Source: Isoptericola halotolerans (GTDB lineage Bacteria; Actinomycetota; Actinomycetes; Actinomycetales; Cellulomonadaceae). From it: a stretch of DNA of 64,000 nt. The position numbers and the translations under genes are program-made. Location: NCBI RefSeq assembly GCF_003003075.1, contig NZ_PVTX01000014.1, forward strand, positions 1-64,000, given 5' to 3'. This document shows, piece after piece, positions 799-59,005 of this stretch (the stretch's first letter is position 1; each line of letters opens with the position of its first letter). The notes under the pieces were generated by a model. It was not told the origin of the DNA. It saw only the letters and a list, made by a program, of their open reading frames with translations, and did not search any database.

Positions 799-2544
799 TC
801 AGGCGCAGGGCACGCCCGCGTCCCACGCCCCGGTGACGGACGTGCCCGGCACCTCGCCGCGGGTCCACCACATCGCCGTGTGGTTCACGCCGGCCCGTGA
901 GACGACGTCGCCGGACGTGTAGGTCGCGGAGGCGTCGAACGCCTCGCGGCACTCCTCGGCCGCCACGGGGTTGTCTCCGTGCACCCCGACCTCACGCCAC
1001 GGGTCGCGCTTGGCATCGGCGCCCGGCTCCTGGTTCCGCGTCCACCACTTCGCCTCGTACTCGACGCCGTTGTGCGACACCACGTCGCCGGCGGTGTACA
1101 CCCCGGAGGCGTACCAGGGCGCGGCCCCGTCACCGGCCACGAGCGGTCCCGGTGCCGCAGCCCGGAAGGTGTCGGCCAGTGCGCCGCCGAGCTCGTTGCG
1201 GTAGTCCCCGGCGATGTCCCAGAAGTACGCGCCACCGAACCCGTTCTCGGCGAGCCACTCGGCCTTGGCCGTCACGGAACGCGGCGTGTCGAGGCTCCAC
1301 CACTGGTCGCCGTCCCACCGGTAGGCGGCCACGGCCTCGTCGTCGTAGTACTCCTCACCGACGGTGCGCAGCTCGGAGTAGTTCTTCACGCCGATCGCCC
1401 CGCTCGCCGGTGCGCCCGGCGTCGGGTCCTCCACGCCCTCCCAGCCCTGCCCGTAGGCGGCGAGGCCGAGCACGATCTGCTCGTCGCGGTACCCGGCGGC
1501 CCGGTAGGCGCCGAGCAGCCCGTCGGCCGCGAGCCCCCAGTTCGCGTCCTGGTCCGGCGCGTCCGGCCAGGAGTACGGGTGCAGGTTGCCCTGGTGCCCG
1601 GTCCGGTCCGCCACCCAGGTGCCGTGGTAGTCGTAGCCCTGGATGTTGAGGAAGTCGACGACGGCGGCGAGCCGGGGGTCCACCCAGCCTCCGTTGGTGC
1701 GCGGGGCCCAGCCGGCCGGCGCGAACCCGGTCAGCAGGTAGTCCTCGCCGTCGACGGCGGAGCGCTCGTCGAGCTCGGCGCGGAACAGCTCCATGAGGGC
1801 CAGGAAGTTCTCCTGGTCCACCTCGGGGTTCGGCGACGGGTGCTCGCCGGTGGCGGCCGGCCACTCCCAGTCGACGTCGAACCCGTCGAAGATCCCGGCG
1901 GCCACGCCCTCGCCGCCCTGGTCGCCGTAGACGGGCAGGTTGCCGTCGAGGTAGATGTCCAGGCAGGACTCGACCAGCCGCTCGCGGCCGGCAGCGGTCG
2001 AAGCCGCCTCGGAGAAGTTGTCGGACCAGGTCCACCCGCCCAGCGAGACCATGATCTTGAGGTCGGGGTACAGCTCCTTGAGCTTGCGGAGCTGGTTGAA
2101 GTTCCCGGCGAGCGCCTGCCCCTCGACGTCGGCCACGCCGTCGACGGCGTCCTCCGCGCCGACGAGGCGCAGGTAGTCGTTCTCCGGGTCGCCCTCGGGC
2201 TGGCCGGGGTCGACGCCGTCGTCGGGCACGACGCCGTCGCTGATGTCGCAGACGAGGTCGCTGGTGACGTTGCCGAACGCGTACGTGAGGTGGGTGAGGT
2301 CGGCGGCGGCACCGGTCCGCACGAGGTCGGCGACCTCGTAGTCGTGGGCGCTGCCGGGCGCCCAGCCCGGGAAGTAGCCGAGCGTGGTGTAGCCGTTGAC
2401 GCCGTCGGCGTCATGGGTGGATCCGGCGTCGGGCGTGGGGGTCGACTTCGCCGCGGCGGCGGGCGCGGCGAGCGCTCCGGCGGTGAGCGCGGTGACGGCG
2501 GCGGCGGTGGTCAAAGTGGTCAGGACGGACGTGCGCTGTTTCAT
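799..2544 (-). CDS. Secreted GH18 chitinase with two C-terminal chitin-binding modules
   Basis: This endo/exo-acting chitinase cleaves beta-1,4-GlcNAc polymers outside the cell. The 581-residue product starts with a Sec signal peptide (MKQRTSVL, then an Ala-rich hydrophobic stretch). The GH18 barrel follows, with SLGGW near residue 167 and the catalytic DGFDVDWEW near 220-228, where the Glu at about 227 is the acid/base. The end carries two CBM5/12-like modules, at about 475-522 (core AKWWT) and 530-581 (core AMWWT). I chose the ATG at 2544 because it begins the signal peptide; a longer in-frame start at 2607 would put 21 charged residues before it. The gene is monocistronic, with the phased repeat array immediately downstream. 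Confidence 0.95.
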   Translation of the reverse strand: MKQRTSVLTTLTTAAAVTALTAGALAAPAAAAKSTPTPDAGSTHDADGVNGYTTLGYFPGWAPGSAHDYEVADLVRTGAAADLTHLTYAFGNVTSDLVCDISDGVVPDDGVDPGQPEGDPENDYLRLVGAEDAVDGVADVEGQALAGNFNQLRKLKELYPDLKIMVSLGGWTWSDNFSEAASTAAGRERLVESCLDIYLDGNLPVYGDQGGEGVAAGIFDGFDVDWEWPAATGEHPSPNPEVDQENFLALMELFRAELDERSAVDGEDYLLTGFAPAGWAPRTNGGWVDPRLAAVVDFLNIQGYDYHGTWVADRTGHQGNLHPYSWPDAPDQDANWGLAADGLLGAYRAAGYRDEQIVLGLAAYGQGWEGVEDPTPGAPASGAIGVKNYSELRTVGEEYYDDEAVAAYRWDGDQWWSLDTPRSVTAKAEWLAENGFGGAYFWDIAGDYRNELGGALADTFRAAAPGPLVAGDGAAPWYASGVYTAGDVVSHNGVEYEAKWWTRNQEPGADAKRDPWREVGVHGDNPVAAEECREAFDASATYTSGDVVSRAGVNHTAMWWTRGEVPGTSVTGAWDAGVPCA

Positions 2545-2792
2545 CGGGAGCCTCGCTGCTTCCTCGGGGTGCGACCCGGAACCGGGTTTGTTCGGTCCCC
2601 TGCACATTAGCGGCGCGCGGTCGCGGGCGCTAGAGGCCCGTGAACCGCAGCGCTCGCCAGGGTCGCGTGAGGGCTTCGTGAAAGGGGGCCGCTCAAGACG
2701 CTCCGCACCACGGCTCTCGGTAACGTCCAGAACTCCGAGGGGGCGATCTGTTGCACGACCCGGCGGCGCCGGCCGCTACACAGGAGGAATCG

Positions 2793-20614: not shown

Positions 20615-22432
20615 GTGAAGAGAATGCTCGCGAGCGCCGCCACCGCCGCGCTCGCACTGGGGGGGCTCGTCGCGACCGCGATGCCCGCCTCCGCCCATAC
20701 GCCGAACGTCGACGCGAACTGCACGAGCCTCTCGCTCGACCTCAAGTGGTACCAGGAGGGCGGTGACGGCAAGACCAACACGGTGACGGTCACCGTCAAC
20801 GGCGAGACGGTGCACGAGGAGCCGTTCGGCGACGGGTACAGCACGTCGGTCCCGCTCGACCCGACCCGGGACAACAAGTGGGTCGTCCAGGTCGACGCCT
20901 GGGACGGCGACACCGGCACCGAGTACGACGAGACGCGGGACGGCACCACCACGGCCTGCCAGGAGCCCGAGCCCGAGCCCGAGAAGCTCGAGACCGCGTT
21001 CTACGTGTACCCGAAGCTGCGCGCGAACGAGCCCGCGGCCTGGCACAACTCGGGCTTCCAGACGCTGATCACGACGCGCGACGGCGAGGAGTTCTGGGAG
21101 ACCCTGCCGGAGGAGTACCCCGGCGACCACTTCAACATCGAGGACCTTCCGGCGGACGCCTGCGAGTCCTGGGGCGTCCAGCAGGACGTCGTCCGGACGC
21201 AGGGGGACTTCGCGTGGTCGGAGTTCATCCACATCACGTACCCCGACGGCCCGCTCTTCGACTGGCGTCTCAAGGCCGACCGCCACACCGACCTGAGCAA
21301 CTTCCTGCCCGAGTGCAGCGACGAGCCGACCGAGACGCCGGAGGAGCCCGAGAAGCCGGAGGAGCCCGAGCTCCCCGAGACGCCCGAGGCCTCTGAGCCG
21401 CCGGAGGCCCCCGAGCCCGTCACCCTGCCGGCGCCCTCGTCGGTGGAGGACTGCGAGGTCGGCAACTCGGTCGACCTGCCGGAGACCGCGCACGCCACGT
21501 ACACCGAGAAGTGGAACGACGACCGCACCGAGGTGACGGTCACCGCCACGCCGGCCGAGGGCGTCCAGCTCGCCGACGGCGCCGAGACCGAGTGGACCTT
21601 CACCTTCACCGGTGAGATCTGCGCGAGCGAGCCCGTGGTCGTGACGCCGGAGCTGCCCACCGTCGTCGACCTGTGCGGCACCGAGAGCGACGACATCCGC
21701 GTCCCGGTGGACTCGGACGAGGTCACCTACGAGAAGACCTCCGAGGGCATCGTCGCCACCGCCGCCGAGGGCTTCGCCTTCGACGAGCTGCCGGCCGGGT
21801 ACAGCGCGGTCGACACCACCTCGGCGCTGTACACCGTCTCCGAGAGCACCTTCACCGACGAGATGTGCGAGCTCGTCCCCGGGGACATCGGCGCCGTGTG
21901 CGACGCCGAGACGCCCTACCTCGTCTACGGCGTGACCCTGCCGGAGGGGGCCCCGGCCCCGGGCGAGAACCCGCTGACCGTCACGTTCATCAACCCGGGC
22001 GGCGGGAACGACCACGTCACCACCGATCTCCCGCTCGAGGGTCGTCTGCTGTGGCCGGGCGCCTCCGCCGAGGAGCCGCTGCAGTGGCCGGGCTGGGAGC
22101 GTCTCGAGGACGGCTCGTACGTCGAGACGGACGGCAACTTCGCCTGGACCCGCGACGGCGTCCAGGTCCGGTTCGAGGTCAACCCGGACTACTCGACCGT
22201 GGTCGAGTACCCGCCGGCCTCCGAGGAGTGCGCCGACGCGCCCGCGGACATCCGTGAGGCCGCCGCGCAGACCGTCGTCGACGTCCCCGAGGACGCGCCG
22301 GAGGTCGCCGCCGAGGAGGACGAGCTCGCCCTGACGGGCGCGACCGTCGGCGTCGCCGCCGCGGTGGCGCTCCTGCTGGTCGCCGGGGGTGCCGCACTGT
22401 TCATCGTGCGTCGCCGGCTCCACCAGGGCTGA
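20615..22432 (+). CDS. LALTG-anchored cell-surface protein
   Basis: The protein has 605 residues. A signal peptide (MKRMLASAATAALALGG, cut after ASA) is followed by acidic beta-rich domains, a Pro/Glu spacer (about 236-275, repeating PEEPEKPE), further Cys-containing beta domains, and a C-terminal sorting signal with LALTG at 571-575, a hydrophobic stretch and RRRLHQG. LAxTG is the signal used by class E sortases of high-GC actinobacteria. No sortase gene is in the window, so a housekeeping enzyme elsewhere is implied. The GTG at 20615 has GAAGGGA 10 bases upstream. The ligand is unknown; the spacer may span the wall. Confidence 0.85.
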   Translation: MKRMLASAATAALALGGLVATAMPASAHTPNVDANCTSLSLDLKWYQEGGDGKTNTVTVTVNGETVHEEPFGDGYSTSVPLDPTRDNKWVVQVDAWDGDTGTEYDETRDGTTTACQEPEPEPEKLETAFYVYPKLRANEPAAWHNSGFQTLITTRDGEEFWETLPEEYPGDHFNIEDLPADACESWGVQQDVVRTQGDFAWSEFIHITYPDGPLFDWRLKADRHTDLSNFLPECSDEPTETPEEPEKPEEPELPETPEASEPPEAPEPVTLPAPSSVEDCEVGNSVDLPETAHATYTEKWNDDRTEVTVTATPAEGVQLADGAETEWTFTFTGEICASEPVVVTPELPTVVDLCGTESDDIRVPVDSDEVTYEKTSEGIVATAAEGFAFDELPAGYSAVDTTSALYTVSESTFTDEMCELVPGDIGAVCDAETPYLVYGVTLPEGAPAPGENPLTVTFINPGGGNDHVTTDLPLEGRLLWPGASAEEPLQWPGWERLEDGSYVETDGNFAWTRDGVQVRFEVNPDYSTVVEYPPASEECADAPADIREAAAQTVVDVPEDAPEVAAEEDELALTGATVGVAAAVALLLVAGGAALFIVRRRLHQG

Positions 22433-23194: not shown

Positions 23195-26100
23195 TCAGCG
23201 GTACTCGCAGAGGCCGATCTTCTCCCACTGCCTCCACTGCCCCATCCACACGCCGTCCCACTGCCCGGACTCGTACCAGCGCTTGCCGTTGCCGTTGCCA
23301 TGGCCGTTGCCGTTGCCGTTGCCGTTCCCGCCACGCTCCCCGCCGGGCGGCGTGCCGTCCCAGCCGAGGTAGCGGTAGGCGTTCCCGTTCCACGACCGGA
23401 CGTCGCCGGGGGCGTAGGTCGATCCCCAGGCGACGCGCGCCGGGCACCAGCCGGCCTCCGCGGCGGTGAACGTCTCGACACCGAGCTGGGTCGACCAGTC
23501 GCCGGCGGACACCGTCCAGGTCGCTCCGCGTCGCCCGTCGACGCGTCGGCTCTCGACCGTCCCCGTCTCGCCGGCCGCCACGACGACCTCCTCGTCCAGG
23601 CCGTGCGGGCCCACCACGTGGAACGTGGTGCGCACGTTCGATCGGGTGTTGTCGAGGATCACGCCGGCCTCGCGCCACGACGTCGCGTAGTCGCCGTACC
23701 GGTCCATCTGGACGTCACCCTGGTCGAGACGCGCGTCGGGGTCACGGACCACGCAGCGGGCCGAGTCGTGCGACGCCTCGCGGTCCGCGGTGAACTGGTT
23801 CCCCTCGATGGTGCGCTCCAGGTGCACGGTCACGGTCCCGGGCTCGACGCTCAGCGACCCGGTGTCGACCACGAACCGGGTGGAGCCGTGCGCGGCGAGG
23901 TCCTGCGTCCCGACCGCCTCCCCGTGGCGCAGCAGCGTCGCCGCCCAGGACCGACCGTCGTCGCCGGCGACGTCCACGACGACCTGTGCCGTCCCGGCGT
24001 CGCACTGCGCGGTGGCGGACACGTCGACGGTGGCCGGCCACCCCGGGGCCTCGGCACAGCTGCCGAAGCCGACGTCGATCCCGCGCAGCTCGCCGCCGTC
24101 GGTGGACACCGTGCCGGAGCTCGTACCCCAGGGCACCCGGAGCTCGAGGGAGCCCTTCGCCCCCGCGGCGAGGCGGACCTCGTCGACGCTCCCGCCGGCC
24201 CGCGCCGTGAAGACCACCGGCAGCGTCGAGCCCGAGTTGTCCACCGGGACGGTGAAGGTCCGCCAGGAGGTCTCGCTCCCGGCGTCGTAGGTGCAGGTGC
24301 CCGCCGGCTCGGCCTGGCCGGCCGCCGGCGCGATGCGGGCGCCGTCGTGGGCCGCCGTCGGCGCGACGGCCGGGACGACGCCGGAGGTCGGCTGATCGCC
24401 GTCGGAGTCGGTCACCCAGCGGTACAGATGGAACGTCGCGGTGCCCCCGGCGAGGTCGGTGCCGCCGGTCGTGCGGCCGAGCGTGACCGTGTCGCCCGCG
24501 CCGAGGCGCACCGCGTCGGTCGTCCCGCCCGCGGCGGTCATCGAGGCCTGCATCGGCTCGCTCGTGCGGTTGGTGACCGTGCCCTCGACCCGGACCTTCC
24601 CGCCGTCGTTGAGCACGGTCGCGGCGGTCTGCACGTTCCAGCTCGGGTCGTAGCACTCCGCGGCACCGTGCGACCCGGCCGAGACCGTCCGGCTGTACGT
24701 GGCGCCCCCCACCGACGTGGACAGCGTCCACGTCCCTCCCCCGGAGGGGACCCGCAGCCCGTCGGGTGCCGTGAGCGTGACCGACTCGCCGGGCGCGAGG
24801 CTGGACGACGTCGAGACCGTGGTGCCTGCGGCCTCGAAGGTGGCGGAGATCGTGCGGCCGGTGAGGTTCGTGTAGGTCCCGACGACGACGGCGTCCGCGG
24901 TGGCCAGCCCGCCGGTGGCACGGCACGACGCGTGGATGGACGCCGCCCCGGCGTTGGCCCCCTCCCACGCCCGGGCAGCGGAGACGACGGCGACCGAGCG
25001 CACCGTCGGGCCGCCACCGGGCAGCTCGGGGACGATCTTGACGTCGTAGCTGCCCTGGGCCGTCGTGCCGTCCGCGACCACCGTCGCGCTGCCCGAGGCC
25101 GACTCGCCGGGAGCGAGCTCGTCACCCGTGCACAGCCAGACCGTGGCGTCGGTCCCGTCACCGTCCCCGGCACGGCACCCGAGCTTCCCGCCGACCCCCT
25201 GCGGCACGAGCCCGGCGGGGACCCGCACCTTCGCCGTCCACCCGGCGGCGACCGGACGGTCGCCGCTGTTGCGCACCGCGAAGGGGATCTGCGCGAGCCC
25301 GGGGTTGGCGACCGAGACGCTGCCGGCGGCCTCCGCGGTGAGCTCCGGACCGAAGTACTCGACCTGCACGGGCTCCAGCGCGGCGCTACGCGTCTCCACC
25401 CCGTCGGCCCAGGTCTGCGCGGTGACGGTGTACGAGCCGCCGTCGCGGACGACGAGCGGGACGGTGACCGTCCGCGTCTCGCCCGGCGCGAGCGTGCCGA
25501 GGGTGCAGAGGGCGTCCTGCGGCGCCGACGTGGGGGTGCAGGCGAGCGACTCCGACGTCAGCCGGACACCGGCGGAGGCCCCGGACGGCGACGAAGCCGA
25601 CGCGTACTGCACACCGGCGGGCAGCGTGAGGAGCACGTGGGAGCCGGCTGCCTCCGTCTCGCCGGGGTTGCTGACCCGCAGCGCCAGCTGGTTGGTGGCC
25701 CGCGGCGTCAGCGCGGCGTCCGGCTGGGCGACGGCGACGACCACCTCGGCGGGCGTGGGGACGACGACGTCGTCCATGACCAGGTCGGCGTCCGTCAGGA
25801 AGGGGAAGTTCACGGGGTCCGTCGGGTCGTCGCTCGGCTCCGGCGTCGGCTCGTCGCTCGGCTCCGGCGTCGGCTCGCCCGTGGGCCACGGCTCGCTCTC
25901 GGCCACGTGCAGCGGCGGGTCCGGGACCGCCGGCACCTCGTCGGAGCCGATCGCCCCGAGCACGCTGACCACGCCGGCGGTCGCGACGGCGACCGCGCCG
26001 GTGGACGCCGCGACCGTCGCTCCCGAGACACCGGCGGTGGTCGCGGCGACGGCGGTGGTCGCGGTCGTGGTGGTCACCGTGGTGGCTCCGGCGGCCGTGG

Positions 26101-27190
26101 CGGTGGCGGCCGTCGCAGCGCCTCCGGTCGCCGCGCTCCCGGTCGCCGCACCGGCGGTCGCCGCTCCGGCGGTGGTGGCGCCGGCGGTCGTGGCACCGGC
26201 GGTCGTGGCACCAGCGGTGGTGCTGCCGGCGGCCGCGCCGACCCCGGCCGAGGTACCCGTGGTGGCTCCCGCCGTCGCACCGCCCGCCGAACCCGTGAGC
26301 CCGACGCCGACGCCGCCGGCAGCGCCGCTCGCAGTCCCGGCAGCAGCGCCGGCACCGAGGGCTCCCCCGGTGACCAGGCCGAGGGGCAGCGCGCCCAGCA
26401 CGGCCATCCCCGCCACGCCGACGACCAGCGGTCCGATGACGCCGCGCATGCCGTGCGCGACGTCGGCGAGCTCGAGCGCCAGCGTCCGGCAGTCACCGCA
26501 CACCTCGAGGTGGGCGTCGACCTGCGCGACCTCGCGGGAGGCGAGGCTCCCCCGGACGTACCCCCCGAGCAGCGCGTTGACCTTGCGGCACGAGTCCGCG
26601 GGCTCGGTGGTGAGGTGCTCCTGCAGGTAGCCGACCCGCAGACCCTCGCGCGCGCGATAGGCGAGCGCCGAGACGCCGTTGGGGGTGAGGCCCAGGATCG
26701 GGGCCACCTGTGCCGGGGTGAGCTGCTCGATCTCGGTGTACCAGAGGACCGCCTGCCACCGCTCCGGCAGGCCCTGGTAGGCGCGGGCGACGACCGTGTT
26801 CTCGAACCCGGCCAGCGCGGGGTCCTCGGGCGAGGCCGACGGGCCCAGCGCCGACTCGAAGGTCCCGTCGTCCGCCGTCGGACGGGTGCGGCGCGCACGG
26901 CGGGCGAGGTCGGCGGCGAGCCGCCGCACGACGGTGAAGAGGTAGGCCCGGAAGTGCGTGTCCGGACCGTCGCCCTGCTGCAGGACCCCGAGCACGCGGT
27001 GGAACGCCTCGGCGACGACGTCGTCGGCGTCGCTCACCGTCCTGACGTACTGACGGGCGAGGACCTGGGCCGCGGAGGCGTGCCGCTCGTAAAGGGCACC
27101 GTAGGCGTCGAGGCTGCCGCCGCGCACCTCAAGGATCAGCTCACCATCGCTGGGAGCTGTTCCGTCCGAACCCACGTAGACGTCGGCCAC
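23195..27190 (-). CDS. ECF sigma factor fused to anti-sigma zinc finger, membrane segment and large exported region
   Basis: The single 1331-residue protein has sigma region 2 at about 25-100 (SDADDVVAEAFHRVL, FRAYLFTVVRRLAADLARR) and sigma region 4 at about 125-185 (LPERWQAVLWYTEIEQLTPA, LGLTPNGVSALAYRAREGL). A zinc anti-sigma motif follows with Cys201, His227, Cys231 and Cys234 (HLEVCGDC). A hydrophobic segment spans about 250-274, then an Ala/Thr/Gly-rich stretch to about 415, a PEPSDEPTPEPS stalk, and DUF11-like and other beta domains from 480 on. The C-terminal end resembles CBM5/12 (YAPGDVRSWNGNAYRYLGW) and is interrupted by a Gly-Asn repeat. A second hydrophobic stretch (390-414) makes topology uncertain. 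The GTG start is the first that includes all of region 2. Polysaccharide sensing with proteolytic release of sigma is inference. Confidence 0.85.
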   Translation of the reverse strand: MADVYVGSDGTAPSDGELILEVRGGSLDAYGALYERHASAAQVLARQYVRTVSDADDVVAEAFHRVLGVLQQGDGPDTHFRAYLFTVVRRLAADLARRARRTRPTADDGTFESALGPSASPEDPALAGFENTVVARAYQGLPERWQAVLWYTEIEQLTPAQVAPILGLTPNGVSALAYRAREGLRVGYLQEHLTTEPADSCRKVNALLGGYVRGSLASREVAQVDAHLEVCGDCRTLALELADVAHGMRGVIGPLVVGVAGMAVLGALPLGLVTGGALGAGAAAGTASGAAGGVGVGLTGSAGGATAGATTGTSAGVGAAAGSTTAGATTAGATTAGATTAGAATAGAATGSAATGGAATAATATAAGATTVTTTTATTAVAATTAGVSGATVAASTGAVAVATAGVVSVLGAIGSDEVPAVPDPPLHVAESEPWPTGEPTPEPSDEPTPEPSDDPTDPVNFPFLTDADLVMDDVVVPTPAEVVVAVAQPDAALTPRATNQLALRVSNPGETEAAGSHVLLTLPAGVQYASASSPSGASAGVRLTSESLACTPTSAPQDALCTLGTLAPGETRTVTVPLVVRDGGSYTVTAQTWADGVETRSAALEPVQVEYFGPELTAEAAGSVSVANPGLAQIPFAVRNSGDRPVAAGWTAKVRVPAGLVPQGVGGKLGCRAGDGDGTDATVWLCTGDELAPGESASGSATVVADGTTAQGSYDVKIVPELPGGGPTVRSVAVVSAARAWEGANAGAASIHASCRATGGLATADAVVVGTYTNLTGRTISATFEAAGTTVSTSSSLAPGESVTLTAPDGLRVPSGGGTWTLSTSVGGATYSRTVSAGSHGAAECYDPSWNVQTAATVLNDGGKVRVEGTVTNRTSEPMQASMTAAGGTTDAVRLGAGDTVTLGRTTGGTDLAGGTATFHLYRWVTDSDGDQPTSGVVPAVAPTAAHDGARIAPAAGQAEPAGTCTYDAGSETSWRTFTVPVDNSGSTLPVVFTARAGGSVDEVRLAAGAKGSLELRVPWGTSSGTVSTDGGELRGIDVGFGSCAEAPGWPATVDVSATAQCDAGTAQVVVDVAGDDGRSWAATLLRHGEAVGTQDLAAHGSTRFVVDTGSLSVEPGTVTVHLERTIEGNQFTADREASHDSARCVVRDPDARLDQGDVQMDRYGDYATSWREAGVILDNTRSNVRTTFHVVGPHGLDEEVVVAAGETGTVESRRVDGRRGATWTVSAGDWSTQLGVETFTAAEAGWCPARVAWGSTYAPGDVRSWNGNAYRYLGWDGTPPGGERGGNGNGNGNGHGNGNGKRWYESGQWDGVWMGQWRQWEKIGLCEYR
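23283..23327 (-). repeat. Hexamer microsatellite inside the sigma-fusion gene
   Basis: Tandem TTGCCG units with one interruption (CCATGG) encode the Gly-Asn run in the chitin-binding-like end. Units of six bases keep the frame when copy number changes. Confidence 0.8.
26135..26230 (-). repeat. 15-bp tandem repeats encoding AGATT units
   Basis: The degenerate 15-bp units, with GTCGTGGCACCGGCG as the clearest copy, encode AGATTAGATTAGATT and decay to AGAAT at the edge. They lie in the Ala/Thr-rich stretch after the membrane segment. This may be a glycosylated stalk; copy-number change would keep the frame. Confidence 0.75.
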
Positions 27191-27292
27191 GTCGCAACCC
27201 GCTTCTTCGTCTCTCCCCCGAGCGTGCCCGTACCCGGCAGGGCACGGACGGCGTCACTCTACGCCGGATAGCCGCCGGCGGGGCGGTCGCGG

Positions 27293-27325
27293 GCGGGTGA
27301 ATCGCCCGTGGCGCGATTCACCCGC
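27293..27325. promoter_or_regulatory. Perfect 13-bp inverted repeat in divergent promoter region
   Basis: GCGGGTGAATCGC (27293-27305) and its exact complement (27313-27325) are separated by seven bases. The element lies about 100 bp upstream of the sigma-fusion start and 53 bp upstream of the divergent gene. It has the form of an operator for a dimeric regulator; as RNA it would form a strong hairpin. Confidence 0.65.
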
Positions 27326-27345: not shown

Positions 27346-27381
27346 TCATGATGGAGTCCTATGAAGGTCCCTCCATCATGA
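27346..27381 (+). promoter_or_regulatory. 11-bp inverted repeat enclosing the start codon
   Basis: TCATGATGGAG (27346-27356) and CTCCATCATGA (27371-27381) are exact complements. The chosen ATG (27378) lies in the right arm and the GAAGG ribosome site in the 14-base loop. In mRNA this would sequester the start codon; in DNA it could be an operator. Confidence 0.6.
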
Positions 27382-28139
27382 GCCTCCCCTCCAGCGGCGC
27401 ACCCGCCGCCGACACCCGTGAGCGCTGGCGCGCGGCCAGCCTCACGGAAGTATGGCTGCGGCCCGGCGACTGGTACCACCCTGCCGTCGACGCGCTGGTC
27501 GAGGCGGTCGAGGCGGGGCGTTCCCCCGAGGCGGCGGCACACCGCCTGGGCACCGCGCGCAGCGCCGCCGGCATCGGTCTCGACGAGACGCTGGACGACG
27601 TCGCCTGCCTGTACCGGGCCGTCGGTGCACCGCTCGACGTCGACGCCGTGCGCGGCGCCGCGCAGGGATGGGTGCTGGTGCGCGAGCGGGACCCGGCACC
27701 CAGCGGCGTCCGGGACCCGGCGACCGGGCTCCCGACGTCCGACTACCTCGGAGAACGGCTGCGGGAGACCTACGGGCGCGCCGCGGGCAACGAGCAGAGC
27801 GTCCCCGAGTCGCACTGCCTCGTGGTGCTCGACGTGGCGGTGGACCAGCTGGGGGCCTGGCAGCGGATGGCCCGGGCCGCCTCGGTGGGTCGGACGCTGG
27901 ACCAGGTGTTCGGCGACGGCCACCCGATGGCGTCGCTGAGCGACGGCGTCTTCGCGGTGCTCTGCGAACGGAGCCCCGAGACCGCGCGGCTGGCGCAGTC
28001 GGTCCGCAAGATCGTGGAGCGCAACGCCGAGGTGCTGGGCGTCTCCGGCAGCATGCGCCGACCGGTGCGCGTCTGGGTGGAGGGGCTGCCGGAGTCCCAC
28101 CAGCTCGCCCTCGAGCTGATCCGGCACCTGCGCCGCTGA
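27378..28139 (+). CDS. Degenerate GGDEF-like protein of unknown function
   Basis: The protein has 253 residues. I do not recognise a close family, but the C-terminal half follows the course of a GGDEF domain: DPATGLPTSDYLGERL (about 113-128) resembles the D-x-LTGLPNR start, HCLVVLDVAV the first strand, and SDGVFAVLCER the place of the GGDEF strand. The signature is lost, so diguanylate cyclase activity is unlikely and a sensor or binding role is possible. ATG 27378 has GAAGG about 10 bases upstream; ATG 27348 is an alternative without a site. It is divergent from the sigma-fusion gene across two inverted repeats. Confidence 0.65.
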   Translation: MSLPSSGAPAADTRERWRAASLTEVWLRPGDWYHPAVDALVEAVEAGRSPEAAAHRLGTARSAAGIGLDETLDDVACLYRAVGAPLDVDAVRGAAQGWVLVRERDPAPSGVRDPATGLPTSDYLGERLRETYGRAAGNEQSVPESHCLVVLDVAVDQLGAWQRMARAASVGRTLDQVFGDGHPMASLSDGVFAVLCERSPETARLAQSVRKIVERNAEVLGVSGSMRRPVRVWVEGLPESHQLALELIRHLRR

Positions 28140-55537: not shown

Positions 55538-55648
55538 CTCCCTCGGCGACGGCCGCACTACCTCGGCGCGCGAGCCCCTACCTCGGGGGGAACCGCACTA
55601 CCTCGGCGACGGCCGCACTACCTCGGCGCGCGAGCCCCTACCTCGCGA
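55538..55648 (+). repeat. 20-bp-phased CTACCTCGGCG array, 6 units
   Basis: Units start at 55538 (one mismatch), 55558, 55578 (one mismatch), 55598, 55618 and 55638 (partly decayed), exactly 20 bp apart. Spacers of units 1, 2, 4 and 5 repeat pairwise (ACGGCCGCA, CGCGAGCCC), showing a 60-bp duplication. The CTA of the last unit is the TAG stop codon of the GH3 gene. Confidence 0.88.
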
Positions 55649-58091
55649 CGGCGGCGGTGGCGATCCGCTCGTCCACCGCCGTCACCGGATGGACCGGCCC
55701 GGTCAGCGTGAGCGTCGCCCGCGGCGTCGCCGTCCCGGGCAGGTCCCGGCGGGTGACCGCCTTCTCGTTGGTGATCGCACCGCCCGTGGCCTCCTCGAGG
55801 ACCTCCCGACCGGCGCCGTCCGTCGCGGCGGCGTGCGAGCCGACCCACACCTGGAACTCGCCCGGCTCGACGACGCGCTCGAGGCTGCGGTCGGTGAACG
55901 CGAACCGTGCGGTCGGCACGGCGAACGCGACGACCACCGACTCTCCCGGCGCGAGCTCGACGCGTTCGTAGGCCAGCAGCTGGGCCACCGGCCGCGGCAG
56001 CGAGCCGACGACGTCGCGCCCGTAGAGCTGGACGACGTCGGCGCCCGCCACGGCCCCCGTGTTCGTCACGCGGACGGACGCCGTGAACGAGCCGCCGGTC
56101 GGCGCCGAGGCGTCGACCGCCAGCTCCGAGTAGGCGAACTGCGTGTACGACAGCCCGAACCCGAACGGTCGCACCGGCGTGGAGTCGGTCGACGTGACGT
56201 CGCTCGGCCCGCCGAGGATCGGGTGCAGGTAGGTGTACGGCTGCGCCCCGGCCGAACGCGGCAGGGACACGGGCAGCCGTCCGGACGGGACGACCCCTCC
56301 TGCGACGGCACCGGCGATCGCCGTGCCGCCCTCCTCGCCGGGGAAGAACGCCTGGAGCACCGCGGCCGGTCGCCGGTCGCCGTCGAGCGCCCAGTCGATG
56401 GCGTACGGGCGCCCGGAGACCACGACCATGACGACGGGCGTGCCGGTGGCGACCAGCTCTTCGACGAGCCGGCGCTGCGCGCCCGGCAGGTCGAGCGACT
56501 CGACGTCGTTGCCCTCGCCCACGGTGCCCCGGCCGAACAGCCCGGCCTGGTCGCCGACGACGACGATCGCGACGTCGGCGGACCCCACCGCCGCCACGGC
56601 CTCGCCGAAACCGGACGTGTCCGTCCCCTCGACCTCGCAGCCGCGGGCGTGCACCAGCGTGGGCTGCTGCACACCGGCGTCGGCGAACGCCCCGCCCAGC
56701 GCCTCGAACACCGTCGGGATCTCGAAGCCCAGGGGCTGCTCCGGGTGGTGCGCCAGCACGTGGTTGGCGAACGAGTAGCACCCCATCAGGGCGTCGGCCC
56801 GGTGGGCGTTGGGCCCGACGACGGCGACACGGCGGGGCGACTGTGTCCACCCGCTCAGCGGGAGCACGCCGTCGTTGGACAGCAGCACCACGGACTCCTC
56901 CGCGAGCCTGCGGGCCACGGCGCGGTGCCGTGGCGAGTCCAGCTCGACGGTGCGGGGCGGCTCGCCCGTGAACGCGTCCAGGTCGAGCAGCCCGAGCTCC
57001 TCCTTCTGCACGAGGGCCCGCAGCACGGCCCGGTCCACGAGCGCCTCGTCGACCCGGCCGTCCCGCACCGCCTCGGCGAGCGGGGCGAGGTAGGCGTCAC
57101 CCGTCGGCAGCTCGACGTCGAGCCCGGCGGCGAGCGCCTGCCCGGCCGCGTCACCGCGGTCCGCCGCCACGGCGTGCATCACCTGCAGGAACGCGACGCC
57201 GAAGTAGTCGGCCACGACGACGCCGTCGAACCCCCACCGCTCCCGGAGGATCCCGGTGAGGTACTCGTGCGCCGCGTGGTTCGGCACGCCGTCGAGATCG
57301 TTGTACGAGGCCATGACGGAGCGCGCACCACCGTCGCGCACCGCCATCTCGAAGGGCGGCAAGTACGTGTCGGCGATCTCGCGCGGTCCGGCGGAGACGG
57401 GCGCGTGGTTGCGCCCCGCCCGCGAGCCGGAGTACCCGACGAAGTGCTTGAGGGTGGCGTGCACGCCGGCGCCCTGGAGGCCCCGGACGTACGACGTGCC
57501 CACGGTGCCCACGAGGTAGGGGTCCTCGGCGATGCACTCGTCGACGCGCCCCCAGCGGGGGTCCTGCACGACGTCGAGCACGGGCGCCAGGCCCTGGTGG
57601 ATGCCGAGCGTGCGCATCGACCCGCCGATCACGGCGCCCATCTCCTCGACGAGCGCCGGGTCGAACGAGGCGCCCCAGGCCAGCGGCGTCGGGAACGTCG
57701 CCGCCTTCCACGCGGCGAGGCCGGTCAGGCACTCCTCGTGGACCAGCGCCGGGATCCCGAGCCGGGTCTCCGCCTTGAGGCGGCGCTGCTCGTCCCACAG
57801 CCAGCGGGCGCGCTCCACCGGGTCCACCGGGCGGGTGCCGTACACCCGCGTGTAGTGGCCGATCCCGTGCCGGGTGACCTCGCCGAGCCGGTCGGACCCC
57901 GCCTGGCCGGCCGCCATCTCGCCCTGCATGGGCGCGACGACCTCACCGCCCTGGTCGAGCCAGTAGCCGACGATCTGGGCGAGCTTCTCCTCGAGGGTCA
58001 TCTCCGCGTGGAGCGCGGCGACCCGGTCGGAGACCTGGGGGCCGACAGGTGCCGGCCCGGGCGCGCCCTCGATCACGGTCTCGGTCGCCAT
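55638..58091 (-). CDS. GH3 beta-glucosidase/beta-xylosidase
   Basis: The protein has 817 residues. The GH3 barrel contains KHFVGYSGSRAGRNHAP (Lys215-His216) and the nucleophile Asp295 in GVVVADYFGVAF. The alpha/beta sandwich follows, with LLSNDGVLPLSG and VVGPNAHRADALMG, and then an FN3-like end (VTNTGAVAGADVVQLYG). There is no signal peptide, so it acts in the cytoplasm on oligosaccharides brought in by the ABC importer. ATG 58091 has AGAGAGGA at good distance; ATG 58115, overlapping the permease stop (ATGA), would add eight residues and is also possible. Its stop codon lies inside the phased array. Confidence 0.93.
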   Translation of the reverse strand: MATETVIEGAPGPAPVGPQVSDRVAALHAEMTLEEKLAQIVGYWLDQGGEVVAPMQGEMAAGQAGSDRLGEVTRHGIGHYTRVYGTRPVDPVERARWLWDEQRRLKAETRLGIPALVHEECLTGLAAWKAATFPTPLAWGASFDPALVEEMGAVIGGSMRTLGIHQGLAPVLDVVQDPRWGRVDECIAEDPYLVGTVGTSYVRGLQGAGVHATLKHFVGYSGSRAGRNHAPVSAGPREIADTYLPPFEMAVRDGGARSVMASYNDLDGVPNHAAHEYLTGILRERWGFDGVVVADYFGVAFLQVMHAVAADRGDAAGQALAAGLDVELPTGDAYLAPLAEAVRDGRVDEALVDRAVLRALVQKEELGLLDLDAFTGEPPRTVELDSPRHRAVARRLAEESVVLLSNDGVLPLSGWTQSPRRVAVVGPNAHRADALMGCYSFANHVLAHHPEQPLGFEIPTVFEALGGAFADAGVQQPTLVHARGCEVEGTDTSGFGEAVAAVGSADVAIVVVGDQAGLFGRGTVGEGNDVESLDLPGAQRRLVEELVATGTPVVMVVVSGRPYAIDWALDGDRRPAAVLQAFFPGEEGGTAIAGAVAGGVVPSGRLPVSLPRSAGAQPYTYLHPILGGPSDVTSTDSTPVRPFGFGLSYTQFAYSELAVDASAPTGGSFTASVRVTNTGAVAGADVVQLYGRDVVGSLPRPVAQLLAYERVELAPGESVVVAFAVPTARFAFTDRSLERVVEPGEFQVWVGSHAAATDGAGREVLEEATGGAITNEKAVTRRDLPGTATPRATLTLTGPVHPVTAVDERIATAAVAR

Positions 58092-58111
58092 GCGGTCCTC
58101 TCTCTGCGCGG

Positions 58112-59005
58112 TCATCCCTTCACCGCGCCCTGCAGTCCGTTGACGATGCGCTTCTGCATCGCCAGGAAGAACACGAGCGCCGGGATCATGGCGAGCGTGG
58201 TGAACGCGAACACACCGGCGGTGTCGGAGGAGTGCTCGGAGGAGAAGTCGGCGACGCCGAGCGGCAGGGTCTTCATGTCGCCCTGCAGCAGCAGGAGCGG
58301 CAGCAGGTAGGCGTTCCACGACCCGACGAACGCGAGGACGCCGACGGTGACCATGCCGGGCCCGGACAGCGGGATGAGGATCCGCCAGAAGAACCCGATC
58401 CGGCTGGTGCCGTCGAGCTGCGCCGCCTCCTCCAGCTCCTGGGGCAGCGCCTTGAGGAACGGCCGCAGGATGACCACGGTCATCGGCAGGGCGAACGCCG
58501 CCTGCGGCAGCGCCACGCCCCACCAGGTGTTGCCCAGCCCGAGGTTCTGCGTGAGCAGGATGAACAGCGGGATGACGGCGACCGTGGCCGGGAACAGCAG
58601 GCCGGCCACGAACACCATGAACAGCGCCTCGCGCCCCTTGAACGTGTAGCGGGCGAGCGGGTAGGCCGCCATGACGCCGAAGACGACGACGATCGCGGTC
58701 GTGACGACGGCGACCACCACCGAGTTGAACGTGTACTGCCAGAACGACGGGTTGGCGATCACGCCCGCGTAGTTGCTGAAGATCCACGGGTCCGGCAGGG
58801 CTGCCGGGTTCTGCGTGAGCTGGCCGTTGCTGCGGAACCCGCCCAGCACGCCGTAGACGACGGGGCCGAGCGTGGCGCAGACGACGACGAACGCGATCGC
58901 GTAGACGAGCGGGTTGCCGCCCTGGAACTTGCCCGCGCTGCCCCGGCGACGCCTGGCCGGCGGGTTCGGCGGGGTCACGGCGGGCATCTGAGTCGACGTG
59001 GTCAT
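58112..59005 (-). CDS. Sugar ABC transporter permease (MalG type)
   Basis: The protein has 297 residues with six helices and the EAA loop ELEEAAQLDGTSRIGFFWRI before the fifth. PLARYTFKGREALFMVFVAG and FPATVAVIPLFIL are typical of CUT1 permeases. It pairs with the MalF-type subunit encoded upstream, whose stop overlaps this start (TGATG). The ATPase subunit is not in the window; a shared MsiK-like ATPase is usual in such actinobacteria. Confidence 0.94.
   Translation of the reverse strand: MTTSTQMPAVTPPNPPARRRRGSAGKFQGGNPLVYAIAFVVVCATLGPVVYGVLGGFRSNGQLTQNPAALPDPWIFSNYAGVIANPSFWQYTFNSVVVAVVTTAIVVVFGVMAAYPLARYTFKGREALFMVFVAGLLFPATVAVIPLFILLTQNLGLGNTWWGVALPQAAFALPMTVVILRPFLKALPQELEEAAQLDGTSRIGFFWRILIPLSGPGMVTVGVLAFVGSWNAYLLPLLLLQGDMKTLPLGVADFSSEHSSDTAGVFAFTTLAMIPALVFFLAMQKRIVNGLQGAVKG

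Follow-up and report, generated by a model that had tools for sequence, protein, structure and literature searches.

Group ECF52 of the extracytoplasmic function (ECF) sigma factors comprises proteins in which a sigma factor, a zinc finger, a membrane region, a proline-rich spacer and a carbohydrate-binding domain are joined; SCO4117 has been characterized, and release by proteolysis was previously proposed for the group (PMC5826349, PMC8999054; here and below, what is attributed to the literature rests on excerpts of the papers cited). The module of SCO4117 is given as smart00776 (PMC5826349), and for some ECF52 and ECF53 proteins hydrolase or carbohydrate-binding domains are predicted but not experimentally validated (PMC10766802). 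Here we analyze a fusion of this design in Isoptericola halotolerans, together with a divergent neighboring gene encoding a degenerate GGDEF-like protein (the partner). Both lie in a stretch of 64,000 nucleotides, referred to below as the window; it comes from contig 14, the genome being 3.85 Mb in size, and we take the host to be a soil bacterium. A sequence-only reading of the window had proposed that the fusion is a self-contained sensor that detects a polysaccharide outside the cell and frees its own sigma part. In its core that proposal is correct without being novel, the fusion design being already known in outline from ECF52, ECF53 and SCO4117; the new part is the linkage to the partner gene. 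Our preferred reading, to which we assign a probability of about 0.6, is that the protein would be a membrane-tethered ECF sigma factor with a class I zinc anti-sigma factor built into the same polypeptide, that it would be released by proteolysis, and that the partner would act on the same switch.

Other described systems share individual features with this locus. In IutY (ECF243) of Pseudomonas putida the anti-sigma factor is likewise fused behind the sigma factor, and activation is by proteolysis involving Prc and RseP; unlike the window fusion, IutY serves iron-siderophore surface signaling in a Gram-negative bacterium (PMC8999054). SigI/RsgI of Clostridium thermocellum is similar in that RsgI is a substrate-sensing, membrane-spanning anti-sigma factor cut in the membrane by RseP, but there the sigma and anti-sigma factors are separate proteins and the sigma factor is of another class (PMC12203970). 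In the RsiG-WhiG switch, signaling by the nucleotide cyclic di-GMP is coupled to an actinobacterial sigma/anti-sigma pair; there the cyclic di-GMP is bound by RsiG, a coiled-coil protein (PMC8325347), whereas the partner described here is GGDEF-like.

The fusion is a conserved single polypeptide

The fusion is encoded on the minus strand by an uninterrupted frame of 1331 codons, which begins with a GTG at 27190 and closes with a stop codon at 23195-23197. The domains that the sequence-only reading had placed in this frame were largely recovered: sigma region 2, the zinc motif and a general ECF match (NCBIfam model TIGR02937, spanning residues 29-185 with 66.1 bits against a cut-off of 42.9) all exceeded their cut-offs, whereas sigma region 4 fell below its own (Table 1). 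The zinc ligands Cys201, His227, Cys231 and Cys234 are identical in 17/17 aligned proteins, and the Hx3Cx2C motif formed by the last three, the hallmark of class I zinc anti-sigma factors, is present in all 80 named loci, which are those that matched the sigma part best rather than a random set; some of them repeat genomes of the same-genus search described below. The window protein has two features of ECF52: an ECF sigma domain and a zinc finger in a single polypeptide, and hydrophobic segments with a proline-rich acidic spacer, here short (residues ~424-459). In AlphaFold2 models most of the sigma and zinc bundle was modeled well, the helices at 199-245 being of higher confidence.

With residues 1-260 as the query, matches of at least 66% identity were found in 15 of 17 other genomes of the genus (one match is cut short by the end of its contig), and none in the remaining two, G006 and G007; identity over the 260 residues was 88% in G008, 74% in G010, 72% in G005 and 69% in G003. 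Every further Isoptericola frame uncut by a contig end (12/12) is a single frame, of 1262-1385 amino acids, which excludes a frameshift artefact. Among the 80 named loci, six frames run off, and 72 of the other 74 extend at least 200 residues beyond the zinc motif; L113 and L143, which do not, terminate close to the ends of their loci, and in three of the 72 (L131, L138 and L144) the frame is short and its tail apparently frameshifted. Neither a frameshift splitting off the sigma part nor halves consistently encoded by separate genes, either of which would have spoken against a self-contained sigma/anti-sigma/receptor polypeptide, was seen among these frames. Judged from sequence, the fusion is real and is conserved as one polypeptide.

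The sigma and zinc part is its best conserved region. This weighs against the idea that the sigma part is of little regulatory importance and that the rod outside the cell serves mostly as an adhesin or cell-wall anchor, a view to which the large size and generic immunoglobulin (Ig)-like folds of the exported part lend something, and which we regard as highly improbable.

Like SCO4117, the window protein is a single actinobacterial polypeptide with sigma factor, zinc finger, membrane region, proline-rich spacer and exported domain, and over the first 260 residues it is 36-43% identical to ten Streptomyces-type relatives (a genus inferred partly from kinship and domains). A tree of 65 rows places the Isoptericola proteins within a Micrococcales clade, beside a clade of Pseudonocardiales, Streptomyces-type NPCBM and ricin-lectin types. 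Because the branches joining these clades are not strongly supported (bootstrap 84-86), we state that the fusion works like ECF52, as compared with SCO4117 through its published description only, and do not assign it to the group. The ricin-lectin-ended fusions (L198-L202) also share a sigma-like part, a zinc-type motif, one membrane segment and an exported lectin domain, with a ricin match in 4/4 of those scanned; they differ from the window fusion in their very divergent sigma part, charged soluble linker and different exported domain. Perhaps, as a guess, they represent ECF53.

A degenerate GGDEF-like gene is linked to the fusion

The partner protein has no Pfam match above cut-off, including to GGDEF. 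A profile (A11) built from 41 of the partner proteins found did, however, retrieve from the PDB, as its best row, the putative GGDEF protein 7e6g (E 8.5e-5), the second row having an E of 0.0036. Of the 12 PDB rows, whose E values reach 2.1, nine carry the label GGDEF or diguanylate cyclase, and the remaining three are FimX (two rows) and PA0861, which we take to carry GGDEF domains as well. The catalytic motif of GGDEF domains, GG(D/E)EF, occurs in none of the 41 partner rows.

Neighbor counts, like the topology counts below, cover 75 of the 80 named loci, L110-L114 (four Isoptericola repeats and one metagenome-assembled genome) being omitted. A partner homologue is divergent and adjacent, 73-486 bp away between matched parts, in 12/12 Isoptericola and 43/43 other named Micrococcales loci, and is placed in the same way in 30 of 32 Pseudonocardiales-type loci; it occurs in 0/9 Streptomyces-type and 2/21 paralogue or other loci. 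Searching with the profile added a partner in L188, L099 and, very weakly, L106. No homologue of tadA, upp, hspR or dnaJ was detected in the 32 Pseudonocardiales-type loci (flanks up to 6 kb); since these other neighbors are not kept there, the linkage of the partner is not passive synteny.

Two genome samples, which overlap in G000 and G008, were searched. In the order sample (297 genomes; thresholds E <=1e-30 for the sigma match and E <=1e-10 for the partner match), 99 genomes had sigma matches and 48 had partner matches, and all 51 partner matches were divergent to a sigma match and no more than 0.7 kb from it (Fisher p 7e-28, uncorrected for relatedness and with one partner, in G449, counted as two pieces). 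In the class sample (394 genomes), sigma matches were present in 130 genomes and partners in 42; 39 of the 42 partners were divergent, two lay just upstream on the same strand, and one (G769) lay by a sub-threshold sigma/zinc frame that was recognized by eye in L215. The converse does not hold, 51 of the 99 order-sample genomes with a sigma match being without a partner. Two genomes, G665 and G632, have two partner copies apiece, each adjoining a sigma fusion. In G782:C9:231952-233437 and G856:C7:167150-168635 the partner comes first and the sigma fusion follows on the same strand, rather than divergently.

The genes might merely share a divergent promoter region, the GGDEF-like protein standing outside the switch, as would be compatible with the rest of our model. 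That half of the sigma-fusion genomes in the order sample do without a partner, and that the Streptomyces-type loci lack it altogether so that the fusion can evidently dispense with it, are consistent with this view. We nevertheless consider it unlikely, because 51/51 and 41/42 partners adjoin a sigma match (the last one a diverged sigma), the Pseudonocardiales-type loci keep no other neighbors, duplicated partners are each beside a fusion, and the pair persists when both genes are on the same strand. No paper on the pair was found among those listed by searches of the open-licence part of PubMed Central. From its sequence associations, then, the partner gene looks like a new, seemingly undescribed linked component of the sigma-fusion switch. 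We would put forward, tentatively and at somewhat less than even odds, a two-gene actinobacterial switch in which a dedicated but catalytically dead protein of the GGDEF fold binds the sigma or the anti-sigma part, perhaps with a nucleotide, and so provides a second, intracellular input beside the surface cue.

Membrane topology and a proposed mechanism

The sequence-only reading had seen one hydrophobic segment, followed by an exported Thr/Ala stalk, and had placed a site-2 protease cut near residues 250-275. The single segment did not hold, and the evidence does not support the other two details. All 13 Isoptericola proteins have two conserved hydrophobic segments, at ~247-275 and 392-417 (hydrophobicity on the Kyte-Doolittle and apparent free-energy scales), and the Ala/Thr/Gly stretch falls between them, inside an uncharged run from 250 to 416. 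Both segments also occur in most of the other proteins scored: segment 1 exceeded 1.5 in 35/36 other Micrococcales, 31/31 Pseudonocardiales-type, 9/10 Streptomyces-type and 14/21 paralogous proteins; eight of the 75 loci were unscored, five being too short and three (L124, L125 and L152) having no second over-threshold segment in the range searched. Were both segments to cross the membrane, the Ig-like rod would end up inside the cell.

Charges, distant relatives and cysteines favor segment 392-417 as the crossing. The 30 residues following it are net acidic in 13/13 Isoptericola, 34/36 other Micrococcales and 8/10 Streptomyces-type proteins, and in the Pseudonocardiales-type proteins they are acidic in 17 of 31, basic in five and equal in nine; the linker before it is net basic in 29/31 Pseudonocardiales-type and 9/10 Streptomyces-type proteins. 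Thirteen distant relatives were examined (L205, without the motif, was unscored). Behind the segment-1 counterpart of L198-L202, L206 and L207 come a charged linker (58-226 residues), a basic stretch and then one membrane segment; the counterpart exceeds 1.5 in L200, L204 and L197. Of the 15 cysteines in the window protein, 12 lie after residue 417 and the other three are those of the zinc motif; ten of the 12 exported cysteines are invariant in all 15 rows of alignment A4, from which L037 and L039 were excluded for their short exported parts.

On these grounds we no longer read segment 1 as a simple membrane crossing. Described class I anti-sigma factors contact sigma region 4 through three helices and sigma region 2 through a fourth (PMC7406223). 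The evidence favors 392-417 as the only membrane crossing and 252-267 as the fourth anti-sigma helix, which binds sigma; the Ala/Thr/Gly "stalk" would then probably lie in the cytoplasm.

We propose that, in the resting state, anti-sigma helices 1-3 would clasp sigma region 4 and helix 4 (252-267) would mask the RNA-polymerase face of sigma region 2, with the flexible, uncharged linker (268-391) remaining in the cytoplasm and 392-417 as the sole crossing. On feeling a surface or polysaccharide cue, the exported rod would be cut outside the cell, and a site-2 protease would then make an intramembrane cut near 392-417; the sigma factor would become free once the anti-sigma part is removed. The partner would most likely be a GGDEF-fold protein without catalytic activity that influences this switch from within the cytoplasm. 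Release by proteolysis, which the sequence-only reading also suggested, survives as a mechanism that was already proposed for ECF52 (PMC5826349, PMC8999054), with the cut relocated. The genome does encode a strong candidate site-2 protease of the M50 family (151.5 bits); this is weak support, because the family was also matched in all 14 control genomes.

Several observations weigh against this model. In the window protein itself the higher hydrophobicity belongs to segment 1 (2.32, versus 1.89 for segment 2), and the AlphaFold2 helices at 252-267 and 395-415 both have a predicted local distance difference test score (pLDDT) below 50. The Isoptericola linker is nearly chargeless (equal in 12 proteins of 13, acidic in one), so that the positive-inside argument rests on the relatives only; among these, the linker of other Micrococcales leans acidic (12 acidic, three basic and 21 equal of 36) and that of paralogues is mixed (nine basic, eight acidic and four equal of 21). 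In the 17-row alignment A2, which includes L037 and L039, C551 and C562 alone of the exported cysteines are invariant. No ECF-type promoter motif was evident by eye upstream of the fusion in an alignment of 15 sequences. Finally, all of the evidence comes from sequence.

A rival reading is that the sigma factor is activated uncut, remaining tethered while a conformational change of the zinc or helix-4 part exposes it. The excerpts of PMC5826349 and PMC8999054 report no cleavage of ECF52-type proteins, and other ECF groups that carry C-terminal extensions are described as being activated by a conformational change (PMC8999054). However, a membrane-bound sigma factor would have to locate its promoters at the membrane, and IutY, the fused sigma/anti-sigma protein, is activated by proteolysis (PMC8999054); we therefore think activation without cleavage improbable.

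The exported part and its end module

The sequence-only reading did not mention the largest element of the exported part, a series of about seven Ig-like domains. AlphaFold2 modeled the 872 exported residues as beta sandwiches, ~7 on our reading of the strand list, with a mean pLDDT of 85.9; the predicted TM-score (pTM) of 0.44 means that the mutual arrangement of the domains is unreliable. Pfam gave one match over cut-off, DUF11 at 498-595. The 50 matches listed by Foldseek for the model are generic Ig-fold chains of unrelated systems, and query TM-scores of 0.09-0.25 mean that little is learned beyond the fold. According to the model, the exported part is mainly these ~7 Ig-like domains.

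The likeness of the end module to CBM5/12 proved weak. Pfam PF02839 (CBM5/12) matched 0/17 proteins (the window protein and 16 orthologues, A2), and the module is absent among the 23 other CBM5/12 places listed by a search of the host genome. The last 95 residues of the Oerskovia orthologue matched PF02839 with E 1.1e-4 and 22.6 bits, under the cut-off of 26.2; four Cellulosimicrobium ends gave no match to it. A mixed profile of 12 ends (eight Isoptericola, one Oerskovia and three Cellulosimicrobium) retrieved chitinases and NodB/chitin-deacetylase-type proteins as the first 12 of 17 PDB rows (best E 1.7e-4). With Isoptericola ends only, a profile of nine found nothing in the PDB, and one of 12 found chitinase or NodB-type proteins in 4/5 rows at E 0.15 to 1.2, which is not significant. 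When compared by eye with the chitin-binding consensus, the tryptophan aligned to the chitinase C motif is kept in eight of the 12 Isoptericola modules and missing in four, and in L035 the whole module is lost. These comparisons weakly suggest a degenerate CBM5/12-like module that is decaying within the genus, its function uncertain.

The ends of relatives differ. Among 30 relatives scanned, eight matched NPCBM, which we take smart00776 to be; L090 was confirmed individually. We have taken these eight to be among the nine Streptomyces-type proteins of that set, with L097 having lost the module. No NPCBM match was found in the window protein by Pfam scan, and with ~7 Ig-like domains and a CBM5/12-like end in place of one NPCBM it is unlike SCO4117; it is also unlike the Streptomyces-type NPCBM fusions in having a degenerate GGDEF neighbor. 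Two related sigma fusions, L120 (Actinotalea, 2149 residues) and L205, have DUF3344-type matches under cut-off; here the sigma, zinc and membrane parts seem to have been retained and the exported part swapped for another.

Chitin sensing as the function of the family was set aside because relatives bear other end domains and the module decays in Isoptericola; the case for chitin as the ligand is weak. An arrangement in which 250-275 is both the crossing and the site-2 cut site, the Thr/Ala stretch an exported stalk and the end module a chitin sensor would fit the greater hydrophobicity of segment 1 in the window protein, the PDB rows of the mixed profile and the GH18 gene with CBM5/12 in the window. 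We judge it quite improbable, given the conserved second segment, the linker charges of relatives, the distant relatives in which the counterpart of segment 1 is soluble, the lack of a significant chitin-binding match with Isoptericola-only profiles and the decay of the module.

Neighboring genes and the intergenic region

The features are collected in Table 1. The GH18 and GH3 genes that had been suggested as natural targets both exist in the window, but nothing links either to this sigma factor. PL9, a further suggested target, had no match among the 17 other window frames scanned (73 frames of at least 330 amino acids are listed, many overlapping). A putative exported protein encoded at 20615-22432 (+) has a cadherin-like match under cut-off and ends in LALTG and a hydrophobic tail, presumably a sortase-type signal; it has a homologue in 6/12 Isoptericola loci.

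Table 1. Features of the fusion, its partner and other genes in the window
Feature	Coordinates	Strand	Residues	Basis
Sigma region 2	26885..27094	-	33-102	Pfam PF04542 Sigma70_r2, 40.4 bits, cut-off 24
Sigma region 4	26645..26785	-	136-182	PF08281 Sigma70_r4_2 under cut-off (21.4, cut-off 25.7); covered by TIGR02937
Zinc anti-sigma motif	26486..26590	-	201-235	PF13490 zf-HC2, 34.7 bits, cut-off 22.2
First hydrophobic segment (putative fourth anti-sigma helix)	26390..26437	-	252-267	AlphaFold2 helix, pLDDT <50
Uncharged Ala/Gly/Thr linker (probably cytoplasmic)	26018..26389	-	268-391	Sequence and charges of relatives
Second hydrophobic segment (putative sole membrane crossing)	25940..26017	-	392-417	Hydrophobicity, charges, AlphaFold2
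Acidic Pro-rich spacer and start of exported part	25766..25939	-	418-475	Sequence; net-acidic charge after segment 2
~7 Ig-like beta-sandwich domains	23462..25765	-	476-1243	AlphaFold2; DUF11 (Pfam)
End module, weakly CBM5/12-like	23198..23461	-	1244-1331	Profile comparisons
Possible -10 element of the fusion, TAGAGT	27256..27261	-		Conserved in upstream alignment of 15 sequences, by eye
Partner gene, degenerate GGDEF-like, divergent	27378..28139	+	253 aa	Start chosen manually; frame opens at 27297
GH18 gene with two CBM5/12 stretches	799-2607	-		Domain scan; 2 of 23 genome CBM5/12 places listed fall here
GH3 gene	55638-58787			Window frame scan

Autoregulation of the fusion is unsupported, because the upstream alignment shows TAGAGT and no visible ECF motif. 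Between the fusion and the partner lies an inverted repeat with 11-base arms (27295-27323), which is looser, by eye, in some other Isoptericola upstream regions; it is a possible operator for both genes.

Implications for ECF52-type sensing

On how ECF52-type proteins sense, the excerpted literature offers a proposal and one studied member whose effects are pleiotropic, without a ligand or a mapped cut. The fusion family of the window offers a testable topology, with the crossing at 392-417 and not at 250-275, and a clear domain dissection. Its linked partner gene could be a missing cytosolic component. If it is true that the partner acts on the sigma factor, a dead diguanylate-cyclase-like protein would join the known modes of sigma control.

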